A program made the position numbers and the translations under genes. A model generated the notes under the pieces. The model ran no database searches, was not told where the DNA came from, and saw only the letters and a program-made list of their open reading frames with translations. From the NCBI RefSeq assembly GCF_964204865.1, contig NC_135252.1, forward strand, positions 9,755,383 to 9,819,382: a stretch of 64,000 nt of DNA. Direction: 5' to 3'. Below are positions 10,214 through 54,205 of this stretch, in pieces. The DNA is from Styela clava (lineage: Eukaryota > Chordata > Ascidiacea > Stolidobranchia > Styelidae). Position 1 is the first letter of the stretch. Every line of letters begins with the position of its first letter.

Positions 10214-11006
10214 ATGGAGAGAAATAAATGTTTGCCAATATATACAATGCTGATGATAGTATCGATGCTGCAAATTTTTTACCTTGCTGATGCACAAACG
10301 ACGATGGCAGTAGCAGGTAAACTAGGATAAATGTTCTTTTTTATTCCTATTTATCAAGTATTGGCACACCAGTAATGCCCCCTTCCACTATATTTGAACC
10401 ATGTTCAAATACTTCTCGAGCTTTTTTTTTGTGAATCACGGGAATAAATGTATAAATTAGAAAGTTAAAAATGTCAGGTATTTACGGCATTCAAATATGA
10501 AATTCAAATTACCAGTTTTTCAAATAGTTTAATTTCGTTATATTCATTACCATCGCATGACATAGAATAAACTAAGAATTCTATTGACTTGATTTTATGT
10601 CTCAATGCTGGAGACTATGCCAAAAGCTTACCATTCGATAAAATTTCGCATCGGTTTTAAAAAACGGACATTACAGAATAGTGTACAGTGTCACCATACA
10701 TGTTATTCCAAATAAATATTTCGGAATTCAATTTGGTTTTCCAAATTATTTTTCGCACGAACATTCGAAATGTGATTCTAATTGAAACAATAGTTAGTTT
10801 ATTAACGTCATGCGCTCATCGTATGCTTTTACGTTATTTTTTTTTCACAAAAATTTATTCTCAAAAATTGAAATAAATGGCTATTTGAATTTATTCAGCT
10901 ACACCATCAAGCAATCAAACGGCAACACAGACTATTCCTCCTACAACTACACAATCTCCCACCACTCCAAATGTAGCGCAAACAACACCGTTCGACAATT
11001 CTTCAG
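10214..11006 (+). CDS. Receptor exons 1-2: signal peptide and Thr/Pro-rich stalk
   Basis: The first ATG with a hydrophobic leader is at 10214; residues about 9-26 form the core and cleavage is plausible after ADA (about residue 26). Exon 1 ends in phase 1 at a gtaaac donor. Exon 2 is a 36-codon Thr/Pro/Gln/Ser-rich segment likely to be O-glycosylated. MRC1 has its ricin-type cysteine-rich domain at this place; none is found in the intron around it. Confidence 0.85.
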
Positions 11007-14000
11007 GTTTGTTAATTCGAAAATAAGAAGTCTGCCTTCTCGAATTTCGTAAATAAACTAGTGATCAATAATATTAATTTATAATCAGTAAATTACTAAT
11101 AGTTTGGCTTGGAATTGTGAAAATAATGATTCGGTTCACTAGAATCTGTAATCGGAAGTTCTTAAAAACGAATATCATAAATCTCTTTTCGATTATTTCT
11201 CGTTCTCTTATTGAATGAGTACGCAAACTTATAAATACTTTGAATTCATTTATGTTTGTTTCTTGTGAAATGATTTATCGAAAATATTCGTGCACTTCAC
11301 TTCTGATTTGCTCCACAATTTCCTCGAATGTTCGTTCATAATACCATGTATAATTAAACAATGGGTATAACATTATTTCAATGACGTTTAGCCGATAAAA
11401 GTTATTTGAATTCTCGCCAGAAAACCAGCCCTTTTACTATTGTGAATTGAAGAAAATATATAACTACGTCCTAATTTATCGACAATCAAGAAACGTCTTA
11501 TCCGTATTCTATTTGGCTCGTTTGATTATAGTCCAGGGTAATTTCTAACGAATTTTTCTGTTGTTCGTAGTGATTTACACGATTGGTGGAAACGCCGGTG
11601 GAGATCCTTGCGTATTCCCCATGGTTTTCATGGGAGTTACGTATTATTCGTGTACGACTGCTGGTAGATCGGATGGATATAAATGGTGTGCAACTACAAA
11701 CAATTATGCAGTGGATTATAATTGGGGATTTTGTCCTCAACCAGGTAATGTAAACACAAAGTGCAGTATAAGTAGCTGATTGTTGTCAGATAAATGACAA
11801 TGCATAATTCCATCCTCTCCTGTTCTAAAATATTGTTATTTTGTAGCATTTCCTTACAATGGGGAAAATAAATATGATTTCACTTACATATGACTTGATA
11901 TATATGGTATTCTAAAATAGCATGTGAAAGTTATAGGCTACTAACTCAGTAATTAGTATCGTATGGTAATCTTATCGTTGCCAAATGTTGGGAGGAAATT
12001 CAAAATTCGAAATCATTTTTAGTGCGTTCATTTTTTTACAATCTTGTTATCTTATTTAGTATACGGGTGCGGTGATTTTTGGGACGAAGAACCGTTCGGA
12101 AAATTTTGCTATCAGTTCAATTTTCAGTCTTCATTGACATGGGTGCAGGCGCGGGACGCTTGTCGACAGCAAGGCGCCGATCTTCTGAGTATAACAACTC
12201 CAAAAGAACAAGGATGGATAGCAGGTAGTAACCAGAAGATAGCCCACCAGAAAGTTTGAAATTCAATTTTTAATCGAATATATAATGATGACGTCTGGTA
12301 TTTTAATTTCTAAAAATTAAAACTGTTCCCTTTTGTTGATGTCATCATCACTTAACACATAACCTACATTCGGTATACAAAAAACTAACATCAAAAATCG
12401 AATGACAAAAATTATCCAATGTCAGTATACTCTTTTTCTCAATCAAACACTGTAACTTTGTATTTGAGTTCAACAAGAGAAGGCCCAACGTACAACATCC
12501 TTTTTCATGTTCTTAAGAAGAACATAAAACATGTAAACTTCAAGCGACAATAACAATACTATTCCATAATATGGAACTCGAAGATAATGGAATATATTTT
12601 ATGAAAAGTGAACGTTGAAATGAACACATCATAATTTTTGCATATATCATTTATTCAGGTCGTATTCAAATTGTCACAACCGTAATGTGGCTGGGATTGA
12701 GTGATATAACGGTGGAAGGTAACTGGGGATGGACTGATCAATCTCCTCTCACATATCTGAACTGGCGAGCAGGTAAACGTCTCGTAAAATGTGATCAATT
12801 TTTACACTATGTTGGCCGAAAAATCCCAAACGCTTTACTTTTTTATGCTTGAGAAATAGGAAAGCACGAGCTTCCACGTAGTGCGTGACCATCAGAGATT
12901 ACTCCAGAGAGTACAATGATTTCCTATTACTTCCTTTCTCGAAAATACTTTGTCACAATCGAAATTGAGATTAAATTGAAATCGAGCCTGTCAATTTTTC
13001 GCCTTTTTGGTCACACTTTGGGACTCATAAAAATTTCTGCTCAACCTTGAAAATTGAATTCTTTGGCAAGTACAGAACGCATACTCGACAAACAAATTCG
13101 AATTTTTTCCCTGACAAATTCTTAGATACAATTTACGAATAATACTATGTTGTACAGGACAGCCGAATAGTTATGGTGGAAACGAAGATTGTGGTGCAAT
13201 CATTACAAGAAATGGATTATGGGGAGACACACCTTGTTCAAGACAACTAAGCTTCATTTGCAAGAAACTTGGTATAGCGTTTTTGGAATTTGAAAATAAC
13301 TTTGTCTTCACATTACGCCGAATTAGTTATGTGACGATACCTCATATATATAAAAAAAATTGTCTTCAGATCTATAACGTACTGTATAAAGATGGAATTA
13401 TAGTAACACTATTTTCTTCGAATTAAGAGACAAATTCCTTTATTTCATGATTGTTTACAAAATCTGTTTTAATTATAGACGAATCTTCTACACCGCCTCC
13501 GAAAACGACTCCCACGCCATCAAACTCCAGTGATATAAATGTGGCTTGTTACCATGGTGATGGAACTTTTTACAAAGGGAACAAAAACACTACAGTTTCA
13601 AACAAAACTTGCATTAATTGGAAAGAGCATACTCCAAATTTTGGTAAGGCATTCTGAACTTAAGTAATTGATTTGGAAACCACATACATTTTTCACCGAT
13701 ATTGCTTCCCTGCCACTGTTAGTCAAAAAAATTATGATTAGGGCGAAAATGATTCGGATGGGGCATTCCCATTCATTTTCCTTATCACAACGATAACGAG
13801 AAATATTTTTGTATAATATACACTCAACTTTATGGAATGAAAATCATATGCTTAATTGTTCTAGGTTTAGAAGGAAGTTTTTGTCGAAATCCAGATCATT
13901 CACCAATGCCGTGGTGCTACACCAGTGATTCAAAGACTCCTTGGGAATACTGTGACATACCCCGATGTGAAGGTTGGAATTATATTTTGTCTACCACTGT

Positions 14001-17000
14001 CATTAATATTAGTAAATGCGCGTGAAAATGTTTTGATCATTTGCACCATTCAACGGCCTTCATGGCACTGACTAGTCTTCAGGATTTTTTTATTTTAGAA
14101 CATGACTCGTTCATGCTTGATAATCCAAGATTGGCTAATAGGTAAATATACCAGTAAACTACTTTTTGAAACACGGGGATAGGTCACAGTTCGACCGTGT
14201 ATGCCGGTACAAGGATTCCGATCTGTTGGTACCAGTTCACGACTGTTATAAGATGCCTCCAATAGGGGCTATTGGTATGCATCGAATTCCATTTTTGTTC
14301 TCTTCTGATATCGAATATTTCATTCACCTTTATCAGGCAATACCGCAGTATCGTTTCCGCAGATTTTTCAAAATGCTTGTTTTAGCGCAGTACTAAATAC
14401 AGTATTTAATGAAAAGCGATGTTTCCAACTTGACACAATTCTCCTTTTATAGGTCGAAAATACTGTAAACAAGGCTGGAAACAGGTCGGAGGACTATGCT
14501 ACAGGCTTGGATGCACTATACCATCAATATGGACGGCTGGTCAGGAACAATGCAAACGTGACGGAGCAAATCTTGCACGAATAAACAATGCAGAGGACAT
14601 GAATGAAATTTTTGCATGGTTAAAACAAATTCAACCCTGGACTGGTAATATTTGTAGTGAAAAAAATATTGCATAATTTTTTGCCGTAAAAGTAGGAATG
14701 ACCAATGACTTACATAACAGAATAAATCAAGCCTCTTGTAACCGTAACATTTTAACATTTTCATTTCCAATGATTTCATTTATGTTTGAGTTTTGAAACA
14801 ATGTAACATAGATTTATATAAAATCCACGAAAACTTGTAAAAATTGATTGTGTGATGATAATTTTTTGTGATGTAGATGGGAAGTAATTCATAATGAGCA
14901 TTTCCATGAGACGGAGAAAATATATATATATATATATATTTTCTCCGTCACATATATATATATATATATATATACATAATTAAACTTATTTCAGGCCTCA
15001 GTGAAATTTGGATTGGATTGAATGATCGAAATCACGAAATGATGTTTACATGGGTTCCCAAGCTTACGGTGAATTTTACTTACTGGGATAGAGATCAGCC
15101 GGATGATATTAAAGGTATGGACTCTTGCAGATTGTCAGACTACAATCAGTTTTTAGTTACTAGTTGCTTGTCAGCTTTTTAATATAGAGTGGGCTAAATA
15201 CCTTGTTGTACGTCATTATACTGCGACAATTTCTTTGCTGCTCATCAAGTATAATTGATTATCGTTTTGCAATATGGACATTGTCTCACATACGTCATGT
15301 TTTTGAATGACCTTTTTTTAATCACAGCCAACGTTTTACCCGAGTCTGGTGTAACAACCATGTTTGTTCTGTTGTAAATCCGGTAATTTCTTTTGTCAAC
15401 TTTATTCACTAATATTATTGATGAAGATGGTCAATACTTATTACCATTGGCCTAAATTTATACCTGCTAATAGCCCGTCTCTAATTCAAGGGACTGATGA
15501 TTGTGTGAGAATGAATCTGACAAGCGGGAGATGGAACGACATAAACTGCAACACAAAACTTCAGTTTCTGTGTGCCCAAGAACCAACGGAACCTAATATA
15601 CCTGATACCGGACTTTCAGACGGAATATGCCAGGGTAGGCAGTCTGGTGGAACACCAGGCAAATTCAATCCAGGGCAAGGTGAGATTGAGATTAATGTTC
15701 TGTTAGATAATATTTCACAGATTGAAAACAATAGAATTTATTTTTATTCTACTATATAGGTTCAAATGGAACATCAATTCAATATCCGACCGCACCTACA
15801 TTACCTGGTAAGTATTTCTTTAAATAGCAAACATTTCTTCAAGTGTGTGCGTGTATATAGTATTGCTCTCGTCGTAGTAATCTATTGATCCTTATGGCAT
15901 ATTGTTTATTTTCGTTTGTATGATTGTGGTTGGTCTTGCTTCAAAAGGAAAAAACGTACTTAAACTGATGTATTGATAAATTTTATACCAATCAATATGT
16001 TTTTTAAATTTCGGAGAAATTCTATAGATTTCAAAAAATGTAATATTATACCACGAGCATTTTGCTGCTTTTCTTCTATATATGTGTGCGATGCATTATA
16101 ATGGTTTGCTCAATTTATTTTCTGATTAGGCTGCGATGACGGTTGGGTTGGATATGGTCAATACTGCTTCAAATTTGAACACGATATGGCCAATTGGACA
16201 ATTGCTTATAGAACATGTAAAAATCGATATGGTGATGATGCAAAGCTAATTCTCCCTCACGATAGGTAAGTATAAAATACATTGCGCCCCCTTTTTTTTT
16301 ATAAAAACGTCATGATTTGTGATATGTAGACATATTTCTTTGATTTCCTAAGAGACCCAAGTAATATTTATTCCCTAAACTAAATTCGATAAAACGCCCT
16401 CGGCCACGTCAAAAAGTGGGACCCCGAGGTTTTCTATGAAATCACGGTCTAAAGGCAAGGCTTCAATTTGCAGATATGAGCAGGCTTTCATAGCAAGCCA
16501 ACTTGCTCGATACAGTGGTGACGTGAAGTTCTTCTTGAATATGTTGGCAGTAAATCGACAACCTCACTCATGGCTTTTCTTGGACGCAAATTTGGATAAT
16601 TTGACAAATACAAAACAGATATCATACACTTATTGGGCACGAAGACAACCTGTTGCACTACCGGATGTCAAATGTGAGTTATTATGTCCATTTTATGTAG
16701 AATGCTTTATGCAAGCAATCGTCGAATTTCCCTCTACGAAAGTATCTCCACATTATTAAAAAATGGCCTGGCCGAAAATGCGACACTTCTGTCCTGCGGT
16801 ATCGCAATGAATAAATTGGCCATCCCGCAACGGTTTTCTGGACTTTTCGCCCCTGGGGTGGTTCACATAACCACTGGTCGGTTACAGCTTCCTCCACCAC
16901 CAAGTCCATGCATCGGAGAGCAAATAACTGGCTAACTAATCCCATACCCGACATGGACTGGTAGTCGGACGAGGGGCCGTGTTCGCTACAGGATTAAGCT

Positions 17001-20000
17001 GTCTTATCGGCTCTCCCCTCCCCGGGAGAAATATGCGAATCTTATCCTATAAAGATGTGTTGTATTTCAGATGGTATGTGCGGTTACATCAGTGCTGGGC
17101 ATACTGGAGGCTTGTGGAGCGTGGGTGATTGCTCAGACACTCACCGTGTTGCATGCATGAAGATGAGAGAAGGTGCTACACCATATCCTCCTACGCCATC
17201 AACACCTCCTCCTGCCGACTGTCCCGATGGTTGGGAGGTAAGTAATGCTTTTGACGTCGTTTTTCGTAAAATCTCTATGATTAAAGCTATAAACAAAAGT
17301 ACGCCGAGATCTTGACTCTGCGACCAAACATAGTTTGACCCGATCTACTACAGATATTATATCAATATTCTCCTCACAGTAACTAAAACAAATATATATG
17401 ATATATAAATTGCAGGCAATTGGAGACAAATGCTACAAAATTTACGTCAAGCATTATCGGAGAGAACGCAAAACATGGTCTGAAGCAAGAGATTTGTGCA
17501 TTTCAAATGGTGGACCTGGCAACGTAGGACAAGGCAATTTGGCCAGCATACATAGTGTTCAACAAGAAGAAACATTAAAGAAGCTTTTGCCATACTGGGT
17601 GCCTGGAACAATATGGATTGGTCTTAGCGACCGAAACGGAGAGGGGAAGTATGTAGACCTGTTGAAATAACATGATAACATATAATATAATGTTGTAAAA
17701 ATCGCATTCTAATGAGCATGTGAAATATCAAAATTAACTTTACAATTTGGGGTGAAGTCATTTCAAATTACACACACATAAAGAATTAAAAATATAAAGC
17801 GAGAGGTGCGAGATTTAAAGCTAGTATCAGTGGATTACAGTTGCTAGTCTCAAGATTCTATTATTCAACCCAACACAGCCAGATGGCATATACACAGTAT
17901 TATTCATTATTTTAGAGTATCCATTCTTGCTATAATAGTGGTTTTGGTGTTGTTCTGTTGGAAAATAACACAAGAAAACGTTGAAATAAAAATTTATTAA
18001 CCCTCTACTAGACACAAAATCTCGCAAGTTCAATAGAAATTTTGGAATTTTGGCGTATAAAATTTTTTTTTAGAGGAGTGCGTTTTACATAATTGCTGAA
18101 TAGAACTCTGGCACACGGAAAGCCATGAGTAAAGCTTTCGGGCTTGATGGTAGACTAGACAAAAAAACTCATGTAAATTGGCAGTAGATCGACCGGCTGT
18201 GTTTTAATTGCAAATAATTTTTGTTTCTTTAATGATATTTTTACTGAAAGGTACACCTGGTCTGATGGCACCACACTGTCTTACATTAATTGGGCAGAAA
18301 ATGAGCCAAACAATAAAAATAATAACGAAGATTGCGTTGCATTTAATTCGCATAAGAGTCCACCAGCATGGAATGACGGAAATTGCAACACACTGAGAAG
18401 TTGGATGTGTCAAATCAAGTAAGACTACTATTCAGAATTATTCAAGTAGAGCTGCAACTAACTCAGTGAACAACCTATTGAAAAAGACAAACTGAAATTG
18501 GCTATAGAGCTCGTCAGATACTTAACGTGTTCTTCGTAAATCACGATGCGCTAAGTATTACTTGGGACCTTACCTATTAGTGAGATTTCGTTACATTTAT
18601 ATTGGAAAGGAATGTTATCCTGTTGTAGTGCCCTTCATCGCACAATATTCATGATTCTACTATTACTACAAAGATAATTACTTTTCTAGCGTTTAGCGTC
18701 ATCGAATACTTATGTTTATGAATGTGTTTTTAGTCGTGGTGCAGTTATACCTGATATGACGAATGTAACAACGCCTGCTCCAATAAACTGCGGAGATTCA
18801 TCATGGGTATATTTTAATGGAAGTTGTTATTATTTCAGGTAAGGGATATATCATTTAATTTATTGTATTAGCAGACTGACCAAACAGCAATGATCAAAAT
18901 AGTCTTCAAATTATGCCTAATTGTTGCCATAACATGATTTCGTTACTCAGCTTTTTCCGACGGAGCATTGCTAAAACTTTTATGAAGAATGCACTGTTAA
19001 CACAACGCCAATGAAACGATTAACGATATACAATGCATCACTTCGCGTTTCCTACTTCTTATTACATCTTTAGCTTGAATATTAGTTTGCTTTTTTATTT
19101 TATGAAAAAGGAGCAAAAGAATATGACGTCATAATTCAAAAAACTCTACCATTCACAATTCCTCGCAACATTGATAAATATAAATTTAGATGACAAGGTT
19201 GGGGTGGTTTAAAACCTAGATATAATAATTATTAATTTATATAATTAGAGTTTATAAAATTCAATAAAACCATATGAGATGTTTCTTTAGTTAGAAAAGA
19301 TGGCACTAACAGCATATGATATGTTTGCTATTTTTTACTGCATGATTAAATGTAAAAAATCCAAACTATAAGTGATGTGTAAACAAGGTATTTTTCATAA
19401 TTCAGTCAACGCGAACGATTAACTTACTACGACGCAAGAGACAGCTGCATGGAAAAGGGAGGAGATTTAGTGTCAATACATTCAATGAACGAGCAAGATT
19501 TTCTTCATGTTCAAATCCAAAGACAATCAACGATGGAATGGTGAGTTCAAAGTTCACTTTGAATCAACTAGAAAATGATTGCATATCATAAATGTCCAAT
19601 CCAGAAGATATATATGGTACTCTGTGTTTGGCCATGTATGATTTGAAATTTTCTCTAGCTGATTCTTGAAATAGTATGATGTTTACAATCACCTTTGTAA
19701 TTGATTGGGGTGATTTTATGCAGGAGGCTGCCGAAGCGTCTCGAAGATGCCCTCCGTAGTTGGTAAAGTACAAAAATATGAATATTCTGATTGCTTTATG
19801 TATTATAAAATTCGATGTTTAAAAACATATATACGTAGATAACTACAAAAAAACTGTAATAGCGCTCAATTTCGAGTAACACTTCTTGATTTTTTTACAT
19901 TTGTATAGATCATTTTCATTCAAAAATTTGTAATGTAGAAATAATACGATAGGACAACATTGCATAAAATTATTGTATAAGAACTAAAATATTCATATAA

Positions 20001-23000
20001 AAATTAGTTTTGTTTGTATCCGTTGATACTTTCAAAAACGTTAATTAATATTTGAACGTAGCAACGATAATATGTCAACCTTGCATTTTGTTTCAAAATG
20101 ACCTGTTTTGCTTAACTTATTGACTATATTTTTCTGCTATTATAAGCATTATAACGTACGTATTTGATCATATGCCGTTGTTTTTAAAAGGTGGATTGGT
20201 CTCGATAGCAACACTAGAGATCGAGAATTTCTTTGGACTGACGGGACGCCAGCCAACTTTTATATGTGGGGAGAAAGTAGGTTTCAAGCAATAATGCGCC
20301 AAAATTAAAACTATCACTTATTTTATATATAACTCTTTTTTTTGTTCTTATTTTCTCATTCAGTGTTCTACTTTTCGCCAATTCAAGTTCTGTAATTTAT
20401 TCTCACTATCAATTTTCTCGATATATATTTTCAACCATTATTTCCTATAGTGACCCTTATTTCGACACTGTGAACTCCGCTACCATATTAGAAAGGTCAT
20501 CATTATTTAACCATCCAATTGTAATTGATAATCTAAAATGGATTAGATCAGCTAAGACTTCTGATGCAGTCACACAGATACAATTGCTCTAACGTTTTTA
20601 TAGATGACGTTGACAATGTATAAATCCACATTTCTGTGATATTTTCCCCACCTATTTAATTTACTGAAAAACTTTGTTTTTCCATTTCACTCAATGCAGA
20701 GGAACCAAACGATGTTAATAGACAAGAACAATGCGTACAAATGTATCAAACGGAGGGACAATGGAACGACGTAAACTGCGGAAAGCGTTATGGGTAAATG
20801 TTATTATCGATATAATAAACCGTTTCATACATTGCTTGAAAATTCTTTTGTGGTAATATCATTTTTAGTGTGTTTACTTTTGCATTCCATTTTCTCGTTT
20901 AGTTATATCTGCAAAAGATTGAACGGTACCTCAACGACTGCGATCACTCCAACGCCAGAGTACCGACCAAGGGGATATTGTCCTGAGGATTGGTGGATTT
21001 ATCGGGGTTACTGCATTAAAGTGTTTGGCATAGGCGAACAAGACAAGTAATTTCACCTCTTTCACGTATTTATTATTGTGTAACAATACCAATATACATT
21101 ATTTTGCAATGAACACAAGCGACAATTACATACTCAATTATATTGTGCTATCTCATTGTGCTTTTTTCACATGGCTTCTGTAGTTTTAGACTGCTTGTTT
21201 AATATGGCCAACTATTAGTCACTTGGAATTACCAATATTGGTGGAATTGACAGCTAAGTGCAGTGCATGTTAATAATCTTTTACAGTAGAATTGATCAAG
21301 TCACAAAACATTTTCTTTTAGGTTGAACTGGACCGATGCGCGTGACGAATGTATGGCATTAGGAGGGAATCTCGTTTCGGTTTCAAATGCTCAGCAGCAA
21401 TCATACATAACGGTATCTACATTTTTCACATATCTAGGTCTAAGTGTAGATACGTCACTTTGTAATTAATATGAAAAGTTTGATAATGACGAACAATATA
21501 CCAAACAGCTGGTTGTAATAAATCTCACCTTTTGAGGGGCTCTGTCAAAATTACTGTTCACAGAATAGAAAAGAGCTGTTATCCTTTACCCACTGAACTT
21601 TCCTTCTAAAAAAGCAAACTGCAACCTTGAATCTTACTTCGTATCTATGTATGTACGTCTATATATCTTCAATTTCTTTTCTTTTTATATGACGCCTATA
21701 CACACGTTTCGCTCCAAACGAGGTCCTGTGTAAGCACTACTGATATCTAACGCTATATATTTATTTGTAAGGACTGAAATCGGTACCCCGTAGTGTATGT
21801 ACCAGGTTAGGGTTAGGTTATAATTTTATTTCGATTTTCCTTATTTTAGTTCTATTACGAGCTCGGGGATTGTCTGTGTTAGACAAGTGAATATACCCCC
21901 TGCCCATATGTTTCAGTCCCTCTACACAACTTGATGTAAAGTAGGCGAACAAAATTAGTTACCCCCATATTGATACACACACTTCTGGAGCGCCCTGGAA
22001 TCTTTCTAATCTGGCATTGCTACCAAATTTAGGTGAGGAGGGGCATGAAATTTAAACCCGAGGTGTGCAATCCGCGATGTCAACGATTTCAGTCTAATGC
22101 TTTAACCGCTGGGCACCGTCCTAATTAAAGGAGTTTAGGTAGATATAGCTTCAGCTTATCAAGACATGGATTATATAATAACAAACATTGCTCCAGACCC
22201 CTAAACAAACTGTATGTCTTATGCATAATGACAAATTCTGTTATATAATTTTGTTATTTATTTGTCATGTACAATTTTTTTCATTTTTATTAGAGTATGC
22301 TGATAGGAATCAATGCCACCGATATGTGGATTGGCTTGAATGATTTATTTGGTGAAGGCAGTTTTGTATGGAGAGATGGAACATCTTATCAATTTACAAA
22401 TTGGAAACATGGCGAACCAAATAGCCCCGCTTACAGAATAGCTGCAGCAAATGTAAGTGAATTCATGACAGTTTATAAATAAATTATTTTCTGTCAAAAA
22501 TTAGGCAATATTGTAGATGTTTGTAAGACAATGCAGCATACTCATTTGTGTTTTAAATATCACTTTTGAATTTGCTCGCTTTACCAGTTATTTATTCTGT
22601 CTTTTTCGTTGCATTGCTGTTGTTTAGTATGTGGGCATTCTTAAATTTGTAATTTGAAGACAAAGTAATTATAAAATAGATTTGTTATTTTTTTCTAAGA
22701 TAATGAATTAAAGAAAAGAATATATTTGCATGGACGTTGGCAGTGTACAAACTTCTGATTATTCTGTGCTCTTTGTTGAATATTTCCATATTATGGTGCT
22801 CGTGATTATGGTATGGCTATTTGATGTTGATGTTCATTTTTTATCTTGTAGCAAGACTGTGTGAAAATGGTGACAGAGAAATGGAATGTCGGTCGGTGGG
22901 CTGACGATGTTTGTGCAAACGAATACGCTTATATTTGTGAAAAACATCGATCTGCTAATGCCGAAGACTTATGTCGTGACAGCCCGAAGTGGCCTTCTAT

Positions 23001-26000
23001 GTGTCAGGTAATATTTTTTCAAATAATGTAATTTAATTGGTTGAAACACTTCATGTGGCAATTCGTTTTATCTAAGCATTTTCTTTAATTTTTCGCATTA
23101 TCGCGGAGATGTGACAGAAAATATTTGACTGATACTGACAGAGATTGTTCCTATTCATTTTTACCTTCCGTTTTATCGTAATTGAGTAATCTCACAGTGT
23201 GTTAGGAAAAGCATTCATTTTTGTCTTTAAAAAACGTTGGATTTTCATCACTATTTTATTTCACTGTATTAAACAATTAAAAATTAAAAAAATTAAAGAA
23301 AACGAATACAATCACTTCAGTAATCAATACGTTTCTTTTCAATCAAGGATGTAACAAAAAACAAAGATTGCAAGAAAATGAGACGAAGGCAAAAAGAAAT
23401 GTGTATGAGAACATGTCAAATGTGCGATAGATTTATAAAACCAGCTAAGTCTTCTAATGCCAATCCGTGTCAGAAAGGTTGGAGATCATGGAACAATGAA
23501 TGCTGGACATTAACTAAAAATAATATGACATGGGACGAGTGAGTACTTTGGTATTATTAGAGGATTAAAAGTTTTGATTCGAAAGTCTAAAATAATTTAA
23601 CATAATATAAAATAATCGGTTCCAGAGTTTAGTTTTCTCAAATGCATTACCGATGGTGGGATTCAATTTTTTTTCAAAGGTTTTGTATCGAACTCACTAA
23701 CAACAGGTTCCCTCATTTCACAAAACCATGGCGAACCTATAGCTTTAAAAACAAGATCGACTTCGATGATAATCACGACATCCCCTGAATTCCACTAGTA
23801 CCAACAATTAGGAAAATGCACATGACCTGTAACCAGCTAAAACTGCATAAGCCATAAATATTTAAATCAACTCAATTATAAATGGTCCTAGCCAGGTAAA
23901 GATTAATTTGGAGTGGTCACCCTTGTGCGGTATATTTAAACGGATGTAATGGAATCCTCCAGAAGCGTGAATGTTGTATGTAATACGGATTGTACACCGG
24001 AGACACACAGGGAATTTTCGCCCTTTTGTGATTCGATTTCATTTACACGTACAAATTCTTTTGCTAATAATCTATGTATTCATTTGTTCTTATGTACTGT
24101 GCTAAAATCATTCACATGACTTTGTAGGGCCACGAAATATTGCTCCGATGCTGGCGCTGAATTAGCAACGATAGGTGATGAATACACACAAGCATGGGCT
24201 TTCAGTCAACTTGCGGATCCAACGGAAAATCCGGACTTATCTCTTCCAGTGGGTCAGAAAGGTTGGATCGGATTGAGACAATACAAGGGATCTGATTCTT
24301 ACACATGGAACAGCAAATGGTAAGTTACTGGACTACGGTAATAAAATTGTGCTACTTTATGTTAGTATTTTATTGATATTTTTTATTGATGTTTTTTGAG
24401 TGTTTGACCTCGTTTCTTTAATTCAGTTTGAATATTTCCGTTTTATCTTTATTTATATCTTTTATTAATTTTACTAAACAAGAATTACAGTGTTTGTCTC
24501 TTAATCTGTTAATCTAATGTTATACAAACGAAACCATAGAAGTCGTAAAATGATATATCATAAAAAACAATTTCTGTTGCATTTTCTCAATATTTTAGTC
24601 AAATATTCAAATTATTTTTGCTACCAGGCCAGTGCTATACACAAACTGGGGCCGTGGTCAGCCAAAATCAGCCAATGGAACCACTCCTGGATGTGTTATT
24701 ATGGACGGTAAGACGGACAAAAGAAAGCAATGGCAAGGAGGGTTCTGGTTTGATACTGATTGTTCTAGTAAAATGATGGCACTCTGCAGAAAAAGCGACA
24801 AAAAGCCACCGAAAAATATCACAGTTTTTCCTGGAAAATGCCCTGACGTATGTACATAAATTTTTTTGTTTCTACAAATTTTGCGTGTGTTTATTCATGT
24901 TTTATTATAAAAACGCACAAAAACATTTATATGAAACATAATAAAACTACTTCAAATATATGTTATATCTTAGCAACTATAAATTTCATTTGCACCCATT
25001 AACCCACTATATTATCTATAACTTATACAGCATTCATATTTTGACACTTTTTAAATTTTCTGCAGAATTCGTGGGTGCCATATAAAGAAAACTGCTACTT
25101 ATTCCGATCGGAACAAATGTCAACATGGTACCAATCAGAGTTCGACTGCTTGAAACTGAATGCACATTCTGCTAGCATACATTCGGAAGATGAATCCAAT
25201 TTTATTATGCGTCAGTCAGCCAACACGAGATCATCTTCATTCATTCGGCGCAATGTGTATGTGGATTCATCATTTTTTTCCTAATTTGTATATTTAAAGG
25301 TGTAATCACAGTGTTCTTTTATTTACAATTGCAATTAAACACATCATTTCGTGATTCAAACTTTTTTATGGTTTCTCCGAACAAATTTGCAAATTTATTG
25401 AGGTCGCATCAATATTGTTATTTTCTTTTACTAGTTGGATAGGATTGTACAGATCGCTGGATGATGACAGTTACTCGTGGACAGACAATTCAGCTCTGTC
25501 TTATCTAAACTGGCAGGAAAAAGAACCTACAAAAAGTGGTGGACTGTTTAAAGTAAGAAATATGTCTAATCGATTATGATTTATTAGTTTATGTTTAGAT
25601 TAGTCCAATTTTGAAGTATAGCAGGGGATTAAAATTTTCGTTTGTTAATTTGGAATTAGTTTATATTAATTGTATCTTACATACAGTTAGTTCTCTATTC
25701 ACGAGTGCCTTACTTATATTTTGCAGGAGGTTTGCACCGAATTATCTGTGTCGAATGGCAAATGGTACGATACGACATGTAACAAAATTGGAATTTCAGT
25801 TTGTAAGATACCAAAAATGTTAGGTAAGAAAACTTCTGCATGTAGCAATTAGGGATCGTGCTACAATCCCGACGTGAAATGTTATTAACGGTGGTGCATT
25901 TGGATATCGGTATATTGCAAAAGATGTACAAACTTCTTTATATAATCAGAATTCATTGAATTACCTGGATTTGAAAATTGAAATATTATTGTGTCACTCG

Positions 26001-26892
26001 GTATAAAATGTACCAATTGCCAACAATAAAAATATAATTCTGCAGGAAACAGCGAACGTGACTAAAGATATCACTATATCAATCCGGTTTTAGATATGAT
26101 TGTATTAATCTAGAAATACGCAAACTTGTATATCCGTTATGTTATCATCTGCAAACTATTGTGAAAATAAATACTCGCTCCAATACTTGTTTCAATTCAT
26201 TTTGGTGTTTCTATTTTACTATTTAAAGTATATTTTTATGGATTACAATTCCTGCTTGGATTCTGTTGCCAAATGTGATCATTGATAAATTATAATGAGA
26301 AAACAGGCCAGCAAATTTCATATTGGCTTAGGTACATCAACTGTGAATTGTTGAAAATAATTAATAAAACTATACATTGACTTATTTTAGACGGATCTGG
26401 AAATTCTGGAAAAACTATAGGTCCAAAGCCCGCAGCAAGTAAGTATTCTTACATTAACTTCGTAAATTGAGTTGGCTTTATCTCGGCATCAAATAGCTCA
26501 AAAACACTATCAAATGCAAGCAACATGTTTCATTTTATCTTCGATAAATTCCATATAAGACTAGATAAATTTTGTATTATATCACATCATTCCCTAATAC
26601 TATTTCATATTCTCATTTCACAGGTAACATTGCTCTTCCAATTATTTTGGTTTTCGTCGTGCTGATTATAATTGGATTTGCGTGTGTAGTGTTTTATTAT
26701 TATAAATCACGAAGTGGAAAAGGAAACTACGTTCTTCAGCTGCCTAGCGTATCATTTCGTGACTTCTTGTCAACAACTCCTGGCCTGCGAACCTTCATGA
26801 CGTCTGGTTCAGGCGATCAACAAGGTCTTGTAGAAGAAGTTGGAGACGACGAAGGAGACTCGCTTATGAGTAAAGATGGTGGATATAGATAA
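10214..26892 (+). CDS. Mannose-receptor-like multi-CTLD receptor with FN2, kringle and ShK-type modules (33 exons, 1599 aa)
   Basis: A complete type I membrane receptor. Exons: 10214-10316, 10899-11006, 11571-11744, 12060-12224, 12659-12772, 13158-13271, 13479-13643, 13865-13972, 14453-14644, 14995-15114, 15491-15679, 15760-15807, 16130-16265, 16474-16673, 17071-17237, 17416-17648, 18251-18418, 18734-18838, 19406-19540, 20191-20276, 20700-20793, 20903-21046, 21322-21412, 22294-22452, 22852-23007, 23348-23538, 24128-24319, 24628-24847, 25066-25256, 25435-25552, 25727-25823, 26391-26438, 26624-26892. Phases agree throughout and total 4800 nt. Order: signal peptide, Thr/Pro stalk, FN2, CTLD1, kringle, CTLD2-6, ShK-type domain, CTLD7-8, membrane span, tail. 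Vertebrate MRC1 is ricin-type domain, FN2, eight CTLDs, span; here the ricin-type domain is missing and two modules are added. Sugar binding, endocytosis and innate recognition are likely roles by family. Exons from mid-CTLD8 onward are duplicated twice downstream. Confidence 0.93.
11007..11570 (+). other. Receptor introns, general note
   Basis: The introns of the receptor gene (this one as an example) are 80-880 bp and AT-rich. No RNA gene or further exon was recognised in them apart from the repeats listed separately (14910-14948 palindrome, SINE at 16835, MITE at 21782). Confidence 0.5.
11571..11744 (+). CDS. Receptor exon 3: fibronectin type II domain
   Basis: One exon (residues about 71-128) holds the whole FN2 domain. 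It has the four cysteines in DPCVFP, YSCTT, KWCATT and GFCP, with the conserved GRSDGYKWC turn. In vertebrate mannose receptors the FN2 domain binds collagen, so a matrix-binding role is possible by analogy. Both borders are phase 1, which suits module shuffling. Confidence 0.93.
12060..13271 (+). CDS. Receptor exons 4-6: CTLD1
   Basis: Residues about 129-259. The features are [17 protein letters not shown], the [18 protein letters not shown] helix, MWLGLSD, LNWRAGQPN and the closing SFICKK. The sugar/calcium loop reads QPN and the following WND position reads WGD. Calcium-dependent binding is therefore uncertain. Confidence 0.92.
13479..13972 (+). CDS. Receptor exons 7-8: Thr/Pro linker and short kringle domain
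   Basis: Residues about 260-350. A Thr/Pro/Ser linker is followed by all six kringle cysteines: CYHGDG, KTCINW, FCRNPD, PWCYT, EYCDIP and RC. First to last cysteine is 67 residues, about a dozen fewer than usual; the loss lies between INWKEHTPN and GSFCRN, where the exons join. The DxD anionic centre of lysine-binding kringles reads D-H-S, so classical lysine binding is doubtful. A very small exon in the 221-bp intron cannot be excluded. Confidence 0.92.
14453..15807 (+). CDS. Receptor exons 9-12: CTLD2 (QPD type) and linker
   Basis: Residues about 351-533. It runs from [15 protein letters not shown] through [10 protein letters not shown] to LQFLCAQ. The binding loop is QPD and the second site is WND, the pair typical of galactose-type calcium-dependent C-type lectins. 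The exon starting at 15491 uses the acceptor attcaag, chosen because it keeps phase 1 and gives DDIKGTDDC. A Gly/Pro-rich linker of about 50 residues follows. Confidence 0.88.
14910..14977. repeat. (TA)n microsatellite within a perfect palindrome
   Basis: The arms gacggagaaaa and ttttctccgtc flank an uninterrupted (TA)n core (14910-14948); a second (TA)n run follows. It is intronic between CTLD2 exons and could extrude as a cruciform. Confidence 0.85.
16130..17237 (+). CDS. Receptor exons 13-15: CTLD3 (degenerate site)
   Basis: Residues about 534-690. It contains [15 protein letters not shown], the SWLFLDANL strand in place of WIGL, and the cysteine pair CGY and VACMKM. The EPN/QPD tripeptide and WND are both absent, so this domain is probably structural. 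Exon 15 continues through a Pro-rich linker into CPDGWE, the start of CTLD4. A SINE fragment lies in the intron before exon 15. Confidence 0.88.
16835..17050 (+). repeat. SINE body and tail fragment
   Basis: This intronic copy shares GGTTCACATAACCACTGGTC, AACTGGCTAACTAATCCC and TTAAGCTGTCTTATCGGCTC with the copy at 5927-6275. It is cut at its 5' side, without the B box. Confidence 0.7.
17210..18418 (+). CDS. Receptor exons 15-17: CTLD4 (EPN/WND, mannose type)
   Basis: Residues about 695-835. [38 protein letters not shown], then WAENEPNN and AWNDGNC. EPN plus WND is the canonical mannose/fucose/GlcNAc-type calcium site. CTLD4 is also the main sugar-binding domain of vertebrate MRC1. Confidence 0.92.
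18734..20930 (+). CDS. Receptor exons 18-22: CTLD5 (EPN/WND, mannose type)
   Basis: Residues about 850-985. [54 protein letters not shown] and QWNDVNC, closing YICKR. It has a second intact mannose-type calcium site, again at the same ordinal position as in MRC1. The domain is cut by four introns. Confidence 0.92.
20960..22960 (+). CDS. Receptor exons 22-25: CTLD6 (EPN, altered WND)
   Basis: Residues about 995-1148. [63 protein letters not shown] and YICEKH. The EPN loop is kept but WND reads WADD with an insertion before it, so calcium coordination may be weakened. The long intron before exon 24 contains an MITE (21782-21994). Confidence 0.9.
21782..21994. mobile_element. hAT-like MITE (family with GG...CC ends), copy 1
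   Basis: The ends are inverted (GGTACCCCGTAGTGTATGTACC against the complement of GATACACACACTTCTGGAGCGCC). It is flanked by an 8-bp duplication with one mismatch, ctgaaatc and ctggaatc. The core ACCAGGTTAGGGTTAGG...GAGCTCGGGGATTGTCTG is shared with the copies at 33179, 48669 and 58018. It is intronic in the receptor gene. Confidence 0.8.
22955..23460 (+). CDS. Receptor exons 25-26: ShK-type six-cysteine domain
   Basis: Residues about 1148-1186 contain six cysteines spaced C-x9-C-x8-C-x10-C-x3-C-x2-C, ending MCMRTCQMC. This fits the ShKT fold family, known from many extracellular enzymes and receptors as well as peptides that act on channels. The middle is very basic ([10 protein letters not shown]). 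It lies between CTLD6 and CTLD7; MRC1, PLA2R and DEC-205 have no such module. The intron falls inside the domain, in phase 0. Confidence 0.8.
23460..24847 (+). CDS. Receptor exons 26-28: CTLD7 (degenerate site)
   Basis: Residues about 1190-1345. [15 protein letters not shown], the [16 protein letters not shown] helix, [19 protein letters not shown] and ALCRKS. The tripeptide is QPK and WND reads WFDTD. Calcium-dependent binding is unlikely. Confidence 0.9.
24835..25823 (+). CDS. Receptor exons 28-31: CTLD8 (altered site)
   Basis: Residues about 1357-1494. [61 protein letters not shown] and SVCKI. EPT and WYD replace EPN and WND. The upstream breakpoint of the tandem duplication falls inside exon 29 at about 25174, so later copies carry only the second part of this domain. 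Confidence 0.92.
26391..26892 (+). CDS. Receptor exons 32-33: Gly-rich stalk, transmembrane segment and cytoplasmic tail
   Basis: A 16-residue stalk exon is followed by a terminal exon with about 24 hydrophobic residues ([20 protein letters not shown]) and a stop-transfer YYYKSRSGK. The tail has 61 residues. It lacks an FENTLYF-like motif of MRC1 but has EGDSLM, an acidic dileucine-like signal (ExxxLM), and a terminal tyrosine (GGYR). Confidence 0.93.
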
Positions 26893-27944: not shown

Positions 27945-28060
27945 CTCGGTGGGGCGGTTTAGTCAACGTGCTGCCCAGTCATTCGCACTTTATCTGTGGA
28001 CACACGGTAATCGCACTGTAAACCCTGGGGTTCGACCTGGACCACGTTGAGAAGCCCTGC
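27945..28060 (+). repeat. Second tRNA-like SINE type (copy A)
   Basis: GGTGGGGCGGTTTAGTCAACGTG resembles a pol III A-box region, and GGGGTTCGACCTGG about 70 bases further resembles a B box. Copies lie at about 39820-39935 and 55256-55370 in units B and C. The copy in C is mutated in the B box. Confidence 0.55.
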
Positions 28061-37047: not shown

Positions 37048-38767
37048 AGCATACATTCGGAAGATGAATCCAATTTTATTATGCGTCAGTCAGCCAACAC
37101 GAGATCATCTTCATTCATTCGGCGCAATGTGTATGTGGATTCATCATTTTTTTCCTAATTTGTATATTTAAAGGTGTAATCACAGTGTTCTTTTATTTAC
37201 AATTGCAATTAAACACATCATTTCGTGATTCAAACTTTTTTATGATTTCTCCGAACAAATTTGCAAATTTATTGAAGTCGCATCAATATTGTTATTTTCT
37301 TTTACTAGTTGGATAGGATTGTACAGATCGCTGGATGATGACAGTTACTCGTGGACAGACAATTCAGCTCTGTCTTATCTAAACTGGCAGGAAAAAGAAC
37401 CTACAAAAAGTGGTGGACTGTTTAAAGTAAGAAATATGTCTAATCCGTTATGATTTATTAGTTTTTGTTTTAGATTAGTCCAATTTTGAAGTAGAGCAGT
37501 GGATTAAAATTTTCGTTTGTTAATTTGGAATTAGTTTATATTAATTGTATCTTGCATACAGTTAGTTCTCTATTCACGAGTGCTTTACTTATATTTTGCA
37601 GGAGGTTTGCACCGAATTATCTGTGTCGAATGGCAAATGGTACGATACGACATGTAACAAAATTGGAATTTCAGTTTGTAAGATACCAAAAATGTTAGGT
37701 GAGAAAACTTCTGCATGTAGCAATTAGGGATCGTGCTACAATCCCGACGTGAAATGTTATTAACGGTGTTGCATTTGGATATCTGTATATTGCAAAAGAC
37801 GTACAAACTTCTTTATATAATCAGATTTCATTGAATTACCTGGATTTGAAAATTGAAATATTATTGTGTCACTCGGTATACAATGTACCAATTGCCAACA
37901 ATAAAAATATAATTCTGCAGGAAACAGCGAACGTGACTAAAGATATCACTATATCAATCCGGTTTTAGATATGATTGTATTAATCTAGAAATACGCATAC
38001 TTGTATATCCGTTATGTTATCATCTGCAAACTATTGTGAAAATAAATACTCGCTCCAATACTTGTTTCAATTCATTTTGGTGTTTCTATTTTACTATTTA
38101 AAGTATATTTTTATGGATTACAATTCCTGCTTAGATTCTGTTGCCAAATGTGATCATTGATAAATTATAATGAAAAAACAGGCCAGCAAATTTCATATTG
38201 GCTTAGGTACATTAACTGTGAATTGTTGAAAATAATTAATAAAACTATACAATGACTTATTTTAGACGGATCTGGAAATTCTGGAAAAACTATAGGTCCA
38301 AAGCCCGCAGCAAGTAAGTATTCTTACATTAACTTCGTAAATTGAGTTGGCTTTATCTCGGCATCAAATAGCTCAAAAACACTATCAAATGCAAGCAACA
38401 TGTTTCATTTTATCTTCGCCAAATTTCATAGAATACTAGATAAATTTTGTATTATATCACATCATTCCCTAATACTCTTTCATATTCTCACTTCACAGGT
38501 AACATTGCTCTCCCAATTATTTTGGTTTTCGTCGTGCTGATTATAATTGGATTTGCGTGTGTAGTGTTTTATTATTATAAATCACGAAGTGGAAAAGGAA
38601 ACTACGTTCTTCAGCTGCCTAGCGTATCATTTCGTGACTTCTTGTCAACAACTCCTGGCCTGCGAACCTTCATGACGTCTGGTTCAGGCGATCAACAAGG
38701 TCTTGTAGAAGAAGTTGGAGACGACGAAGGAGACTCGCTTATGAGTAAAGATGGTGGATATAGATAA
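37048..38767 (+). pseudogene. Second copy of receptor terminal exons (unit B)
   Basis: Exons 37048-37130 (truncated CTLD8 exon), 37309-37426, 37602-37698, 38266-38313 and 38499-38767 match receptor exons 29-33 with all splice signals kept. The encoded residues from the breakpoint to the stop, including membrane span and tail, are the same as in copy A; one silent change (CTT to CTC) is seen in the last exon. There is no start codon, signal peptide or upstream CTLD, so alone it is a 5'-truncated fragment. The junction puts ccag before AGC, a potential acceptor in phase 0. Confidence 0.8.
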
Positions 38768-40990
38768 AATTCAAAAACTGTGACTATATATATTTCAAAA
38801 TTATTGAAAGCAGTGCCAACTTATACTTAATTACATAAGTAGGAGTAGTTCATCCTCTGACTGGCTTTTCTCAAAGTAATTTTCTAACCTGCATTTTTGA
38901 ATGAATGTAGTCGAAGAGCCTTTCATTGATAATGTGTAAAGGCCTTAAAACTTTTGTCTTCACTATCAAAATCATACAGACGAGCTATTGTTGACGCAAC
39001 ACCCCACTCGAAGACTACCATTTCATAAAATTTGTATTAATAAATTTGATGTTTTCAAAAGTATGGATATTAATATTTTTGAGAAAAAACTTGGTTTTTA
39101 AAATTTCAGTTGAAATCTTAATAACAAGTTGGAAGAATTACATATTTAATTTTGTTGAAATTGCACTCGTAATAATAGTGCAGTTTTATAAGTGCAATTT
39201 GTATTAAAATTATTCCAAATAAATTCCATTTGTTATAATATGTTGTTTTTTGTCAGTTGAGAGGTCGAACTTATTAAATTAGAAAAGTTTTGAAAAACGA
39301 TTTTGGTGACAAATCACAGCGTGCGTTACGTTTCTTTTCTGGTGGACGCAACTATTTTACTTACTCTTCTAGAAAAATCTTGGAAGATATGAATTGTCTC
39401 AATATATGTATAGAAACGTTACAGGGTCATTATTCACGTCATTCGACGTCACTCAATTTGAAGGAAAGTATGAGACTAAATTGCTTGCGCACCACTCATA
39501 TTCGTGTTTTCCCATACTCATTTTATTGCATTGGTCTGAATAAATCTGATGAGGCTGGGGGACATGACTTGTTACATGTACTTTGGTGAAGTTACTGGTT
39601 AAGTTGTAGCAACGAGTTCGCTGAGCAAAGTGGCGGCAATCGTGAAATTGCAAAATGATATTAAAAGAAATGAAAAGTACCTAATTAATGTTTGAAGTCG
39701 GAGATTGGGCTCGAATAAAAAGATGAATTTGGGATTACAATTCCAAATCAAATTTGTCGAGTAATAGGTTTATTCAGTTATTTTATTATTACCCTTTTCA
39801 ATTAAGTACCTTGAGACAACTCGGTGGGGCGGTTTAGTCAACGTGCTGCCCAGTCATTCGCACTTTATCTGTGGACACACGGTAATCGCACTGTGAACCC
39901 TGGGATTCGACCTGGACCACGTTGGGAAGCCCTGCTTTAGATAATGCTTGCTGAATGTTGATTTACGTTTGACCAAGTAGACCAGGGGTCGGCAAACTAC
40001 GGTCCGTGGACCAGATGCGGCCCGCGACGCTTCACTGAATTATAGCAGGGGTGGCCAACCTGCTTTCGGCCGCTATCGACTAAAATAGTTTCAGTATCAT
40101 TTCCCCGAAAATTGTACGGTTTTCGTGTCCCACATGTCCCATGGGAAATACAAATGTGCGCTGTCCCATCCCACTCCCATGGGAATCCCATTCCCATGGA
40201 CAACCCTGATAATGTCCCAGTGACCAAGCATTTTTTTTTTCAAAATTAGTTGCAATTTAAGTTTTCTCGCTTTCCGAATGAATAAAATTTTCTGATGATG
40301 ATAATGTTGACAATGCTGTAGGTAATGGGATACGGTCTTTAGTACAAAACAATGTTCGCAAAATCCGTTGAAATGACAAGCAATTCTGTGTAAATATGTA
40401 TTCAGGACGCAATGATCAGTTTGCAGTCGGAATTAAAAAAAATTGATATTTGCGTGTCTGCTCGTTCAATTAATTTATAATCGACTCTTCTTTCAAATTT
40501 TTAACAACTTTTTTGTATCCTCTTGTAATAACTTATAGCGACTGCAATGAGGGGAAGGTACTCAAACGTTGAAAAACCATTGGTGTAGTTGACAAAATAG
40601 CTATCCTTGGGAACAAAATGGCTGATAAATTATGTTTAACTACGCCTGGGAAATTCAGTTCAACCACTAACCGTTTGGCTGAGTGTTGAGTTTGTTTGAC
40701 ATTAATTTGATTTATGATGATGTTTTTCCGTTTCCTTACGAATAACTTAACATTAAATATACCTATAGTCGTTGATATTGAAGATAGTAAATACGGCGAG
40801 TTGGAATATTGATTCATTAATTGTACATGTGTACGAGAATAAAATATTTTATACATAATAGGATATACCAAATATATCATTTATATAAGTATGTTCATTA
40901 GGGCTGAAAATTCCAGTGCAAATTCTTCAATCGTTACTCTGAGAGAATTACCGATCAATCACCATCAACGTGAAAAAGCATCACAAAACA
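38768..40990. other. 3' flank of terminal-exon copy B and start of the inserted segment
   Basis: The same contents as 26893-29110: AATAAA (39218-39223), the tRNA-like SINE (about 39820-39935), truncated hAT ends (about 39979-40087) and CCCATGGG motifs. Nothing new is seen. Confidence 0.6.
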
Positions 40991-41000
40991 ACAACAAGAG

Positions 41001-52494: not shown

Positions 52495-54205
52495 AGCATA
52501 CATTCGGAAGATGAATCCAATTTTTTTATGCGTCAGTCAGCCAACACGAGATCATCTTCATTCATTCGGCGCAATGTGTATGTAGATTCATCATTTTTTT
52601 CCTAATTTGTATATTTAAAGGTGTAATCACAGTGTTCTTTTATTTACAATTGCAATTAAACACATCATTTCGTGATTCAAACTTTTTTATGGTTTCTCCG
52701 AACAAATTTGCAAATTTATTGAAGTCGCATCAATATTGTTATTTTCTTTTACTAGTTGGATAGGATTGTACAGATCGCTGGATGATGACAGTTACTCGTG
52801 GACAGACAATTCAGCTCTGTCTTATCTAAACTGGCAGGAAAAAGAACCTACAAAAAGTGGTGGACTGTTTAAAGTAAGAAATATGTCTAATCGATTATGA
52901 TTTATTAGTTTATGTTTAGATTAGTCCAATTTTGAAGTATAGCAGGGGATTAAAATTTTCGTTTGTTAATTTGGAATTAGTTTATATCAATTGTATCTTA
53001 CATACAGTTAGTTCTCTATTCACGAGTGCCTTACTTATATTTTGCAGGAGGTTTGCACCGAATTATCTGTGTCGAATGGCAAATGGTACGATACGACATG
53101 TAACAAAATTGGAATTTCAGTTTGTAAGATACCAAAAATGTTAGGTAAGAAAACTTCTGCATGTAGCAATTAGGGATCGTGCTACAATCCCGACGTGAAA
53201 TGTTATTAACGGTGGTGCATTTGGATATCGGTATATTGCAAAAGACGTACAAACTTCTTTATATAATTAGATTTCATTGAATTACCTGGATTTGAAAATT
53301 GAAATATTATTGTGTCACTCGGTATACAATGTACCAATTGCCAACAATAAAAATATAATTCTGCAGGAAACAGCGAACGTGACTAAAGATATCACTATAT
53401 CAATCCGGTTTTAGATATGATTGTATTAATCTAGAAATGCGTATATCCGTTATGTTATCATCTGCAAACTATTGTGAAAATAAATACTCGCTCCAATACT
53501 TGTTTCAATTCATTTTGGTGTTTCTATTTTACTATTTAAAGTATATTTTTATGGATTACAATTCCTGCTTAGATTCTGTTGCCAAATGTGATCATTGATA
53601 AATTATAATGAAAAAACAGGCCAGCAAATTTCATATTGGCTTAGGTACATCAACTGTGAATTGTTGAAAATAATTAATAAAACTATACATTGACTTATTT
53701 TAGACGGATCTGGAAATTCTGGAAAAACTATAGGTCCAAAGCCCGCAGCAAGTAAGTATTCTTACATTAACTTCGTAAATTGAGTTGGCTTTATCTCGGC
53801 ATCAAATAGCTCAAAAACACTATCAAATGCAAGCAACATGTTTCATTTTATCTTCGCCAAATTCCATATAATACTAGATAAATTTTGTATTATATCACAT
53901 CATTCCCTAATACTCTTTCATATTCTCATTTCACAGGTAACATTGCTCTCCCAATTATTTTGGTTTTCGTCGTGCTGATTATAATTGGATTTGCGTGTGT
54001 AGTGTTTTATTATTATAAATCACGAAGTGGAAAAGGAAACTACGTTCTTCAGCTGCCTAGCGTATCATTTCGTGACTTCTTGTCAACAACTCCTGGCCTG
54101 CGAACCTTCATGACGTCTGGTTCAGGCGATCAACAAGGTCTTGTAGAAGAAGTTGGAGACGACGAAGGAGACTCGCTTATGAGTAAAGATGGTGGATATA
54201 GATAA
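52495..54205 (+). pseudogene. Third copy of receptor terminal exons (unit C)
   Basis: Exons 52495-52577 (truncated CTLD8 exon), 52756-52873, 53048-53144, 53704-53751 and 53937-54205, again with intact splice sites, membrane span, tail and stop. One replacement is visible in the first fragment (Ile to Phe, ATT to TTT at about 52523). As in copy B, no 5' part of a receptor precedes it. The same ccag-AGC junction offers an in-phase acceptor. Copy C is followed by complete hAT elements and non-duplicated sequence, so its right flank may be the original downstream flank of the gene. Confidence 0.8.

Follow-up and report, generated by a model that had tools for sequence, protein, structure and literature searches.

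The vertebrate mannose-receptor family (group VI: MRC1, MRC2/Endo180, PLA2R and DEC-205, together with chicken FcRY) is composed of an N-terminal ricin-type domain, an FN2 domain directly before the first C-type lectin-like domain (CTLD1), eight or ten CTLDs, a single type I membrane span and a short tail. In the mammalian mannose receptor (MR), mannose binding is reported to be carried by CTLD4 with CTLD5, CTLD1 and CTLD2 are in close contact, and flexible linkers surround CTLD3 and CTLD6 (PMC9672410). A gene resembling this family lies on the forward strand of a 64,000-nucleotide (nt) stretch of the Styela clava genome (contig NC_135252.1, positions 9,755,383 to 9,819,382; assembly GCF_964204865.1), which is referred to below as the window. 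The Styela protein shares with the family the FN2 domain before CTLD1, eight CTLDs, the single type I span, the short tail, the sugar-site letters at CTLD4 and CTLD5 and the Endo180-type FN2 residues. It differs in a kringle placed between CTLD1 and CTLD2, in a six-cysteine insert between CTLD6 and CTLD7, in its exon number (33 as compared to 30) and, as the other main difference beside the kringle, in the absence of the ricin-type domain. The gene probably encodes an intact type I endocytic scavenger receptor for glycans and collagen, in which a kringle has been added to the FN2-plus-eight-CTLD core common to the family.

Proteins with parts of this architecture have been described elsewhere. 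A kringle is listed among the domains of the Manila clam 'RpMR' mannose receptor genes (PMC12321717); the combination of kringle and CTLD is therefore not unique to Styela. The clam proteins are likewise non-vertebrate multi-CTLD proteins, but their CTLD counts range from 1 to 14, and the available part of that source names no FN2 or ricin domain and leaves unstated which protein carries the kringle and in which order. Shrimp LvMR likewise lacks a ricin domain and has its CTLDs after FN2, but it contains only two CTLDs in 315 residues, and the word 'kringle' is absent from the main text of its description (PMC10341498). According to the same source, the mannose receptors found in Hyalella, Crassostrea and Lingula contain 12-15 CRDs and lack both CR and FNII. 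Lancelet adhesion G-protein-coupled receptors (GPCRs) are reported to carry kringle and Lectin C-type N-terminal modules on receptors of a non-vertebrate chordate, but they are seven-span proteins, and no FN2-plus-eight-CTLD array is reported in the accessible portion of the paper (PMC2246102). The 'macrophage mannose receptor 1-like' protein of Ciona is known by its CLECT domain (PMC10433773). Judged by titles and abstract openings, no description of FN2, kringle and CTLDs in one protein was found in the literature for this architecture, which stands on a known receptor plan. A pattern search with the FN2 + CTLD1 start (113 residues) confirmed 0 of 3 matches in the viral_contigs set and 0 of 89 in the genome_contigs set, which are viral and prokaryotic collections uninformative on animals.

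Gene model and kinship with the vertebrate receptors

The gene was rebuilt by hand by reading the plus strand and joining the exons. The coordinates, the 33 exons and the in-phase splicing of the original prediction were all reproduced, every intron being GT-AG. The spliced exons amount to 4800 nt in one open frame, with the sole stop codon at its end (start 10214, stop ending at 26892); the length of exactly 1600 codons given earlier is right if the stop is counted, whereas the protein has 1599 residues. Introns are 80-881 nt long (median 345), and the GC content is 43% in coding sequence as compared to 31% in introns. A Pfam search of the full protein, taken to E=1, revealed eight Lectin_C stretches (E=1.6e-133), a Kringle at residues 283-349 (E=8.7e-16) and fn2 at residues 84-125 (E=2.7e-15), values at which the matches are not due to chance. 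Together with hydropathy, these matches bear out both the predicted count of eight CTLDs and the predicted domain order, i.e. a signal-like start, FN2, CTLD1, kringle, CTLD2-6, the cysteine segment, CTLD7-8, one membrane span and the tail. Mean hydropathy in 19-residue windows exceeds 1.6 at two places only, the N-terminus and a stretch near residues 1506-1540. A single signal-like start and a single membrane span in the chain argue for one gene, which is judged by its sequence to be intact.

It is very improbable that the model is an artefact, in which exons of a different gene supply the kringle or the six-cysteine segment, or the real transcript omits them. Such an error is conceivable, as exons 7-8 can be skipped in frame, and a false fn2/Lectin_C fusion has been documented in lancelet gene predictions (PMC4967905), a warning for models built from sequence. 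However, introns 6, 7 and 8 (207, 221 and 480 nt) leave little room for a gene end, a promoter and a signal exon, the junctions on both sides are in-phase and GT-AG, and one signal-like start and one span serve the entire chain. Intron 25 interrupts the six-cysteine segment, which lies on exons shared with CTLD6 and CTLD7, and skipping of exons 25-26 breaks the frame. Unlike the lancelet fusion error, the FN2-CTLD1 junction of the Styela model is supported by homology.

This homology was recorded in sequence searches of the protein and of its CTLDs against the PDB, the CTLD numbers in PDB chains being counted from the order of the matches. Among the best 60 of 337 matches to the full-length protein, the top chains are FcRY (470 bits), PLA2R (402), DEC-205 (387), MRC1 (282) and MRC2 (267), the last two being partial chains. 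FN2 and CTLD1 align as a single block, with 135.5-161.3 bits, in all five chains printed (FcRY, PLA2R, DEC-205 twice and MRC1). CTLD3-6 are collinear with PLA2R in one alignment of 139.6 bits. CTLD7-8 with the membrane region align to FcRY with 96.6 bits, the next stretch having 38.8, and the best DEC-205 match of CTLD7-8 is the last two CTLDs of that chain (66.2 bits). The single MRC1 domain 1egg, which we take to be CTLD4 of MRC1, aligns to Styela CTLD4 with 84.3 bits. Of the six units compared to FcRY, four find their best match by position (CTLD1 with FN2, CTLD2, CTLD4 and the CTLD7-8 pair), whereas the other two, CTLD5 and CTLD6, do not. The positional match of CTLD2 scores 39.6 against 28.8 in FcRY; it is also positional in PLA2R (34.2) and a near tie in DEC-205 (47.4 vs 47.1). 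The best PLA2R match of CTLD6 is PLA2R CTLD6 (40.4 vs 38.2).

Several alignments weigh against so simple a correspondence. CTLD5 prefers the vertebrate CTLD2 (FcRY 75.8 as compared to 50.1 for CTLD5; PLA2R 68.9 as compared to 54.7), CTLD6 prefers FcRY CTLD1 (48.0 vs 28.8 for CTLD6), and CTLD4 is best matched by PLA2R CTLD1 and by DEC-205 CTLD2, its lead in FcRY being small (31.6 vs 28.6). When the protein was searched at full length, a further alignment joined CTLD5-6 to FcRY CTLD2-3 (113.5 bits), and the last CTLDs of PLA2R align to CTLD5 and not to CTLD7-8. For the CTLD7-8 pair searched by itself, the highest-scoring PLA2R stretch is likewise not the one at the corresponding position. Positional agreement is poorer with PLA2R and DEC-205 than with FcRY, and one-to-one orthology of the CTLDs is only partly supported.

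The failure of CTLD5 and CTLD6 to match by number in FcRY, and the alternative alignment of CTLD5-6, would also be compatible with a convergent assembly, in which FN2, kringle and CTLDs were shuffled independently and the protein bears only a family resemblance. The missing ricin domain is in line with such an origin, as is the distribution of intron phases: introns 1-12, which span the linker, FN2, CTLD1, the kringle, CTLD2 and the next linker, are all of phase 1 (12 of 12), as compared to 2 of 18 for introns 13-30, while introns 31-32 are again of phase 1, so that the N-terminal half and the rest could differ in history. Convergence is nevertheless unlikely, because the match to vertebrate FN2-CTLD1 runs across the junction, the alignments of CTLD3-6 and of CTLD7-8 are long and collinear, and eight CTLDs are present, of which the fourth and fifth have the full set of sugar-site letters.

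The shared core extends to individual residues. In Endo180, FN2 residues Y193, R206/D208, Y219, W225 and F227 were chosen for mutation because gelatin binding depends on their counterparts, and collagen is proposed to lie on FN2 and on the face of CTLD1 that extends it (PMC4635314). Five of these six gelatin-site residues are identical in Styela (R, D, Y, W and F), and Y193 is replaced by F, as in MRC1. Complete mannose-type calcium-site letters (EPN/E/WND) occur in two of the eight CTLDs only, namely CTLD4 and CTLD5. An extra N-terminal cysteine pair is present in all eight CTLDs, whereas the vertebrate family, whose genes have 30 exons, is reported to carry it in domains 2, 3, 4, 6 and 8 (PMC4229073); this rule is not strict, as the CTLD1 rows of FcRY, PLA2R and DEC-205 in the PDB alignments also show two cysteines there. 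The linker between CTLD2 and CTLD3 (15491-15807) is about 48 residues long and has no Pfam match; it contains an additional cysteine and includes the phase 1-1 mini-exon 12 (48 nt). Intron 9 contains, at 14910-14949, a ten-base inverted pair, GACGGAGAAA / TTTCTCCGTC, around a run of AT dinucleotides, which was spotted by eye.

No ricin-type domain was detected in the protein by Pfam. A missed upstream exon was considered and rejected, as no Pfam ricin match was obtained for the 8 open reading frames (ORFs) submitted, which lie between 8611 and 11545 and come from a list of 54 covering both strands of 8000-11571. The absence could reflect either a loss or the state before the vertebrate gain. 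Loss does happen in the family, as evident from chicken MRC1L-D, which is without the CysR and FNII exons (PMC4229073), and the same may have befallen the Styela gene; yet this course is the doubtful one of the two. A survey tabulates the fn2-Ricin_B_lectin pair of MRC1 with the domain-shuffling pairs of vertebrates (PMC11788884), the CR domain is reportedly missing from named invertebrate 'mannose receptors' (PMC10341498), and the submitted ORFs gave no trace of a ricin domain. FN2 with eight CTLDs and without ricin may therefore be the older plan.

The kringle and the six-cysteine segment

The kringle is a module best known from blood-clotting proteins. The one predicted between CTLD1 and CTLD2 proved genuine, with a Pfam score of 58.5 bits in the full protein against a cutoff of 34.3, and of 70.1 bits (E=2e-19) when searched alone. 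It holds the six cysteines and the CRNPD, PWC and WEYC core in common with plasminogen kringle 4 and the HGF kringles. Its best solved match is plasminogen, of which kringle 4 is the best stretch (34 of 71 aligned residues identical), followed by angiostatin (plasminogen kringles) and HGF. Unlike these, it resides in a protein without a protease domain, has an altered lysine site and is about 11-12 residues shorter than the plasminogen kringles in the stretch from the W that follows the second cysteine to the GLE motif. The gap coincides with intron 7 or falls a few residues from it, its placement varying among alignments. Two routes to a longer kringle through other splice sites were rejected: if exon 7 is extended into the intron, a stop follows within five codons, and the 30 codons that read open upstream of exon 8 end in IICLIVL and are by eye not kringle-like. 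The short loop is probably real and not a splice-site mistake.

At the positions that we take to form the lysine pocket, one acidic residue and the Trp are kept, the second acidic residue is changed from D to S, the basic R is changed to P, and the lysine loop is deleted; the pocket is not needed for the fold. Classical lysine binding by this kringle is unlikely, because the pocket residues are mostly missing. Exons 7-8 form a frame-neutral phase 1-1 cassette that can be skipped without a frame shift, and kringle-plus and kringle-minus isoforms, of 33 and 31 exons, are therefore possible. Phase-1 introns are a mark of exon shuffling, and the phase pattern described above is what insertion of the kringle by this route would predict. 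A possible tunicate donor is indicated by the Ciona best match to HABP2, tabulated with FN2, PAN, kringle and trypsin domains (PMC6337849).

The second insert had been called an ShK-type module. A mannose-receptor-like protein with two added modules does emerge from the analysis with respect to FN2, the eight CTLDs and the kringle, and the second insert exists as a six-cysteine segment between CTLD6 and CTLD7, but its ShK identity could not be upheld. The cysteines of residues 1144-1185 are spaced by 9, 8, 10, 3 and 2 residues and end in C-x-x-T-C-x-x-C, and it is this spacing alone that fits. The segment matched no Pfam family of any kind and no PDB sequence up to E=10, so that ShKT identity was rejected as an established assignment. 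In contrast to the kringle, it is not bounded by introns, its exons also carrying the last part of CTLD6 and the first part of CTLD7.

A true ShKT domain, which would bind or block an ion channel or another partner, is possible, although the balance is tilted against it. The ShKT-like pattern appeared in 1 of 20,000 shuffles of the protein, with pattern ranges set around the observed one, and ShKT domains are present in sea-squirt and lancelet astacins (PMC9848320); bond connectivity in such domains is C1-C6, C2-C4, C3-C5 (PMC6409789). Six cysteines within 40 residues, in contrast, arise in 61% of the 20,000 shuffles, and the empty Pfam and PDB searches count against the assignment. The simplest role for the segment would be that of a rigid spacer within the flexible linker between CTLD6 and CTLD7.

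Feature coordinates and surroundings of the gene

Table 1. Positions in the window of the gene, its parts and the partial copies of its 3' end
Feature	Position	Strand	Basis or remark
Whole gene model, 33 exons, 1599 residues + stop	10214..26892	+	Single open frame; 32/32 introns GT-AG
Exon 1, hydrophobic N-terminus, putative signal peptide	10214..10316	+	19-residue hydropathy windows starting at 6 and 7 exceed 1.6
Exon 2, Ser/Thr/Pro-rich linker at the site of the vertebrate ricin-type domain	10899..11006	+	Residues 30-70, 56% S/T/P
Exon 3, FN2 domain	11571..11744	+	Pfam fn2; residues at the Endo180 FN2 site F90 R103 D105 Y116 W122 F124
CTLD1, exons 4-6	12060..13271	+	Pfam; aligned jointly with FN2 to vertebrate FN2-CTLD1
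Ser/Thr/Pro linker + kringle (residues 281-350), exons 7-8, phase 1-1 cassette	13479..13972	+	Pfam Kringle; plasminogen kringle 4 best stretch; phases
CTLD2, exons 9-11	14453..15679	+	QPD, DDC, WND calcium-site letters
Linker exon 12 + CTLD3, exons 13-15	15760..17165	+	Pfam
CTLD4	17214..18734	+	Complete EPN / E / WND letters
CTLD5	18786..20924	+	Complete EPN / E / WND letters
CTLD6	20973..22947	+	Site incomplete (EPN present, but Q and WAD)
Six-cysteine segment (residues 1144-1185), interrupted by phase-0 intron 25	22963..23428	+	ShKT-like spacing only; no Pfam or PDB match
CTLD7	23462..24799	+	Pfam
CTLD8	24833..25816	+	Pfam
Membrane span, exons 32-33	26438..26709	+	Top 19-residue hydropathy windows start at residues 1513-1517
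Cytoplasmic tail	26704..26892	+	EGDSLM + acidic DDE
Second copy of the 3' end, truncated (from mid-exon 29 through exon 33, + flank)	37048..40994	+	Sequence identity ~98%
Truncated third copy of the 3' end	52495..55525	+	Sequence identity ~98%

The gene is triplicated at its 3' end, in a unit that runs from mid-exon 29 through exon 33 into the flank, the first copy lying at 25174-28212 and the two others at the positions given in Table 1. The copies differ at 1-2 of 615 aligned coding bases, as compared to 22-28 of 1104 in introns and 18-36 of 1320 in the flank (coding vs intron, Fisher p 8.5e-5, 0.0042 and 5.1e-5). They represent either a tandem duplication under constraint or uncollapsed alleles. 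The downstream copies were rejected as alternative 3' ends of the gene, as they start inside exon 29 and so are without its acceptor, and would in any case provide nearly the same tail; their use would require either a position downstream of the first copy's exon 29 or the skipping of exons 29-30. The segments 29109-40087 and 44600-55525 form an 11 kb segmental duplication (98.3%), and nested repeats of about 0.3-1.3 kb lie between 40981 and 44552.

Elsewhere in the window, a short ORF on the plus strand (9221-9487) has a weak, below-cutoff match to a Jak1 PH-like domain (E=0.0026); it may be a piece of a gene lying upstream, or the match may be due to chance. Two membrane-protein-like ORFs on the minus strand (58164-58691 and 59670-60104) have no Pfam match up to E 0.1, and one of them carries an LNPFIY motif of the kind known from GPCRs. 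No RNA family reached its gathering score within the window.

Proposed working and implications

The Styela receptor would work in the manner of the mannose receptor or Endo180. The FN2-CTLD1 surface may bind collagen or gelatin, while CTLD4 and CTLD5, and perhaps CTLD2 with its galactose-type QPD letters, may bind sugars with calcium. The tail has about 60 residues and no YxxPhi; its EGDSLM fits a dileucine-type pattern, and such a signal would bring the cargo into the cell. The kringle would provide an added protein-binding face beside the collagen-binding end, probably not of the classical lysine-binding kind.

One consideration weighs against this proposal. The kringle occupies the CTLD1-CTLD2 linker, between domains that are packed together in Endo180, and might break this packing; the linker itself is partly disordered in Endo180 (PMC4635314).

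A more specific mechanism can be drawn by analogy, in which the kringle touches the neighbouring CTLDs within the chain and, as a spliced cassette, would open or close the CTLD1-CTLD2 hinge and thereby switch the uptake of collagen or glycans. Tetranectin (CLEC3B), a protein of the C-type lectin fold that binds plasminogen kringle 4, offers a precedent for contact between a CTLD and a kringle, but there the modules belong to different proteins and the binding is weak (Kd 20-50 uM; PMC10770464). A title cited in the same source ties the contact to the lysine pocket, which is mostly missing in the Styela kringle; a tetranectin-like contact is thus weakened, and the hinge switch is a long shot. 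If it were true, collagen uptake of the Endo180 type and kringle recognition would be fused in one chain.

For the preferred reading of an endocytic receptor that shares the family core and has gained a kringle, the implications concern the history of the family. With an invertebrate deuterostome as host, the FN2-plus-eight-CTLD core would stand without ricin, which fits the survey that places the fn2-ricin pair among the domain-shuffling pairs of vertebrates. Some caution is required, since other invertebrate multi-CTLD proteins with kringles have already been mentioned in print. The kringle adjoins the place where Endo180 binds collagen, and the gene would therefore constitute a natural experiment on the modification of that end of the receptor. 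The order in which an important receptor of immunity and matrix uptake was assembled would become testable by the comparison of a few genomes.

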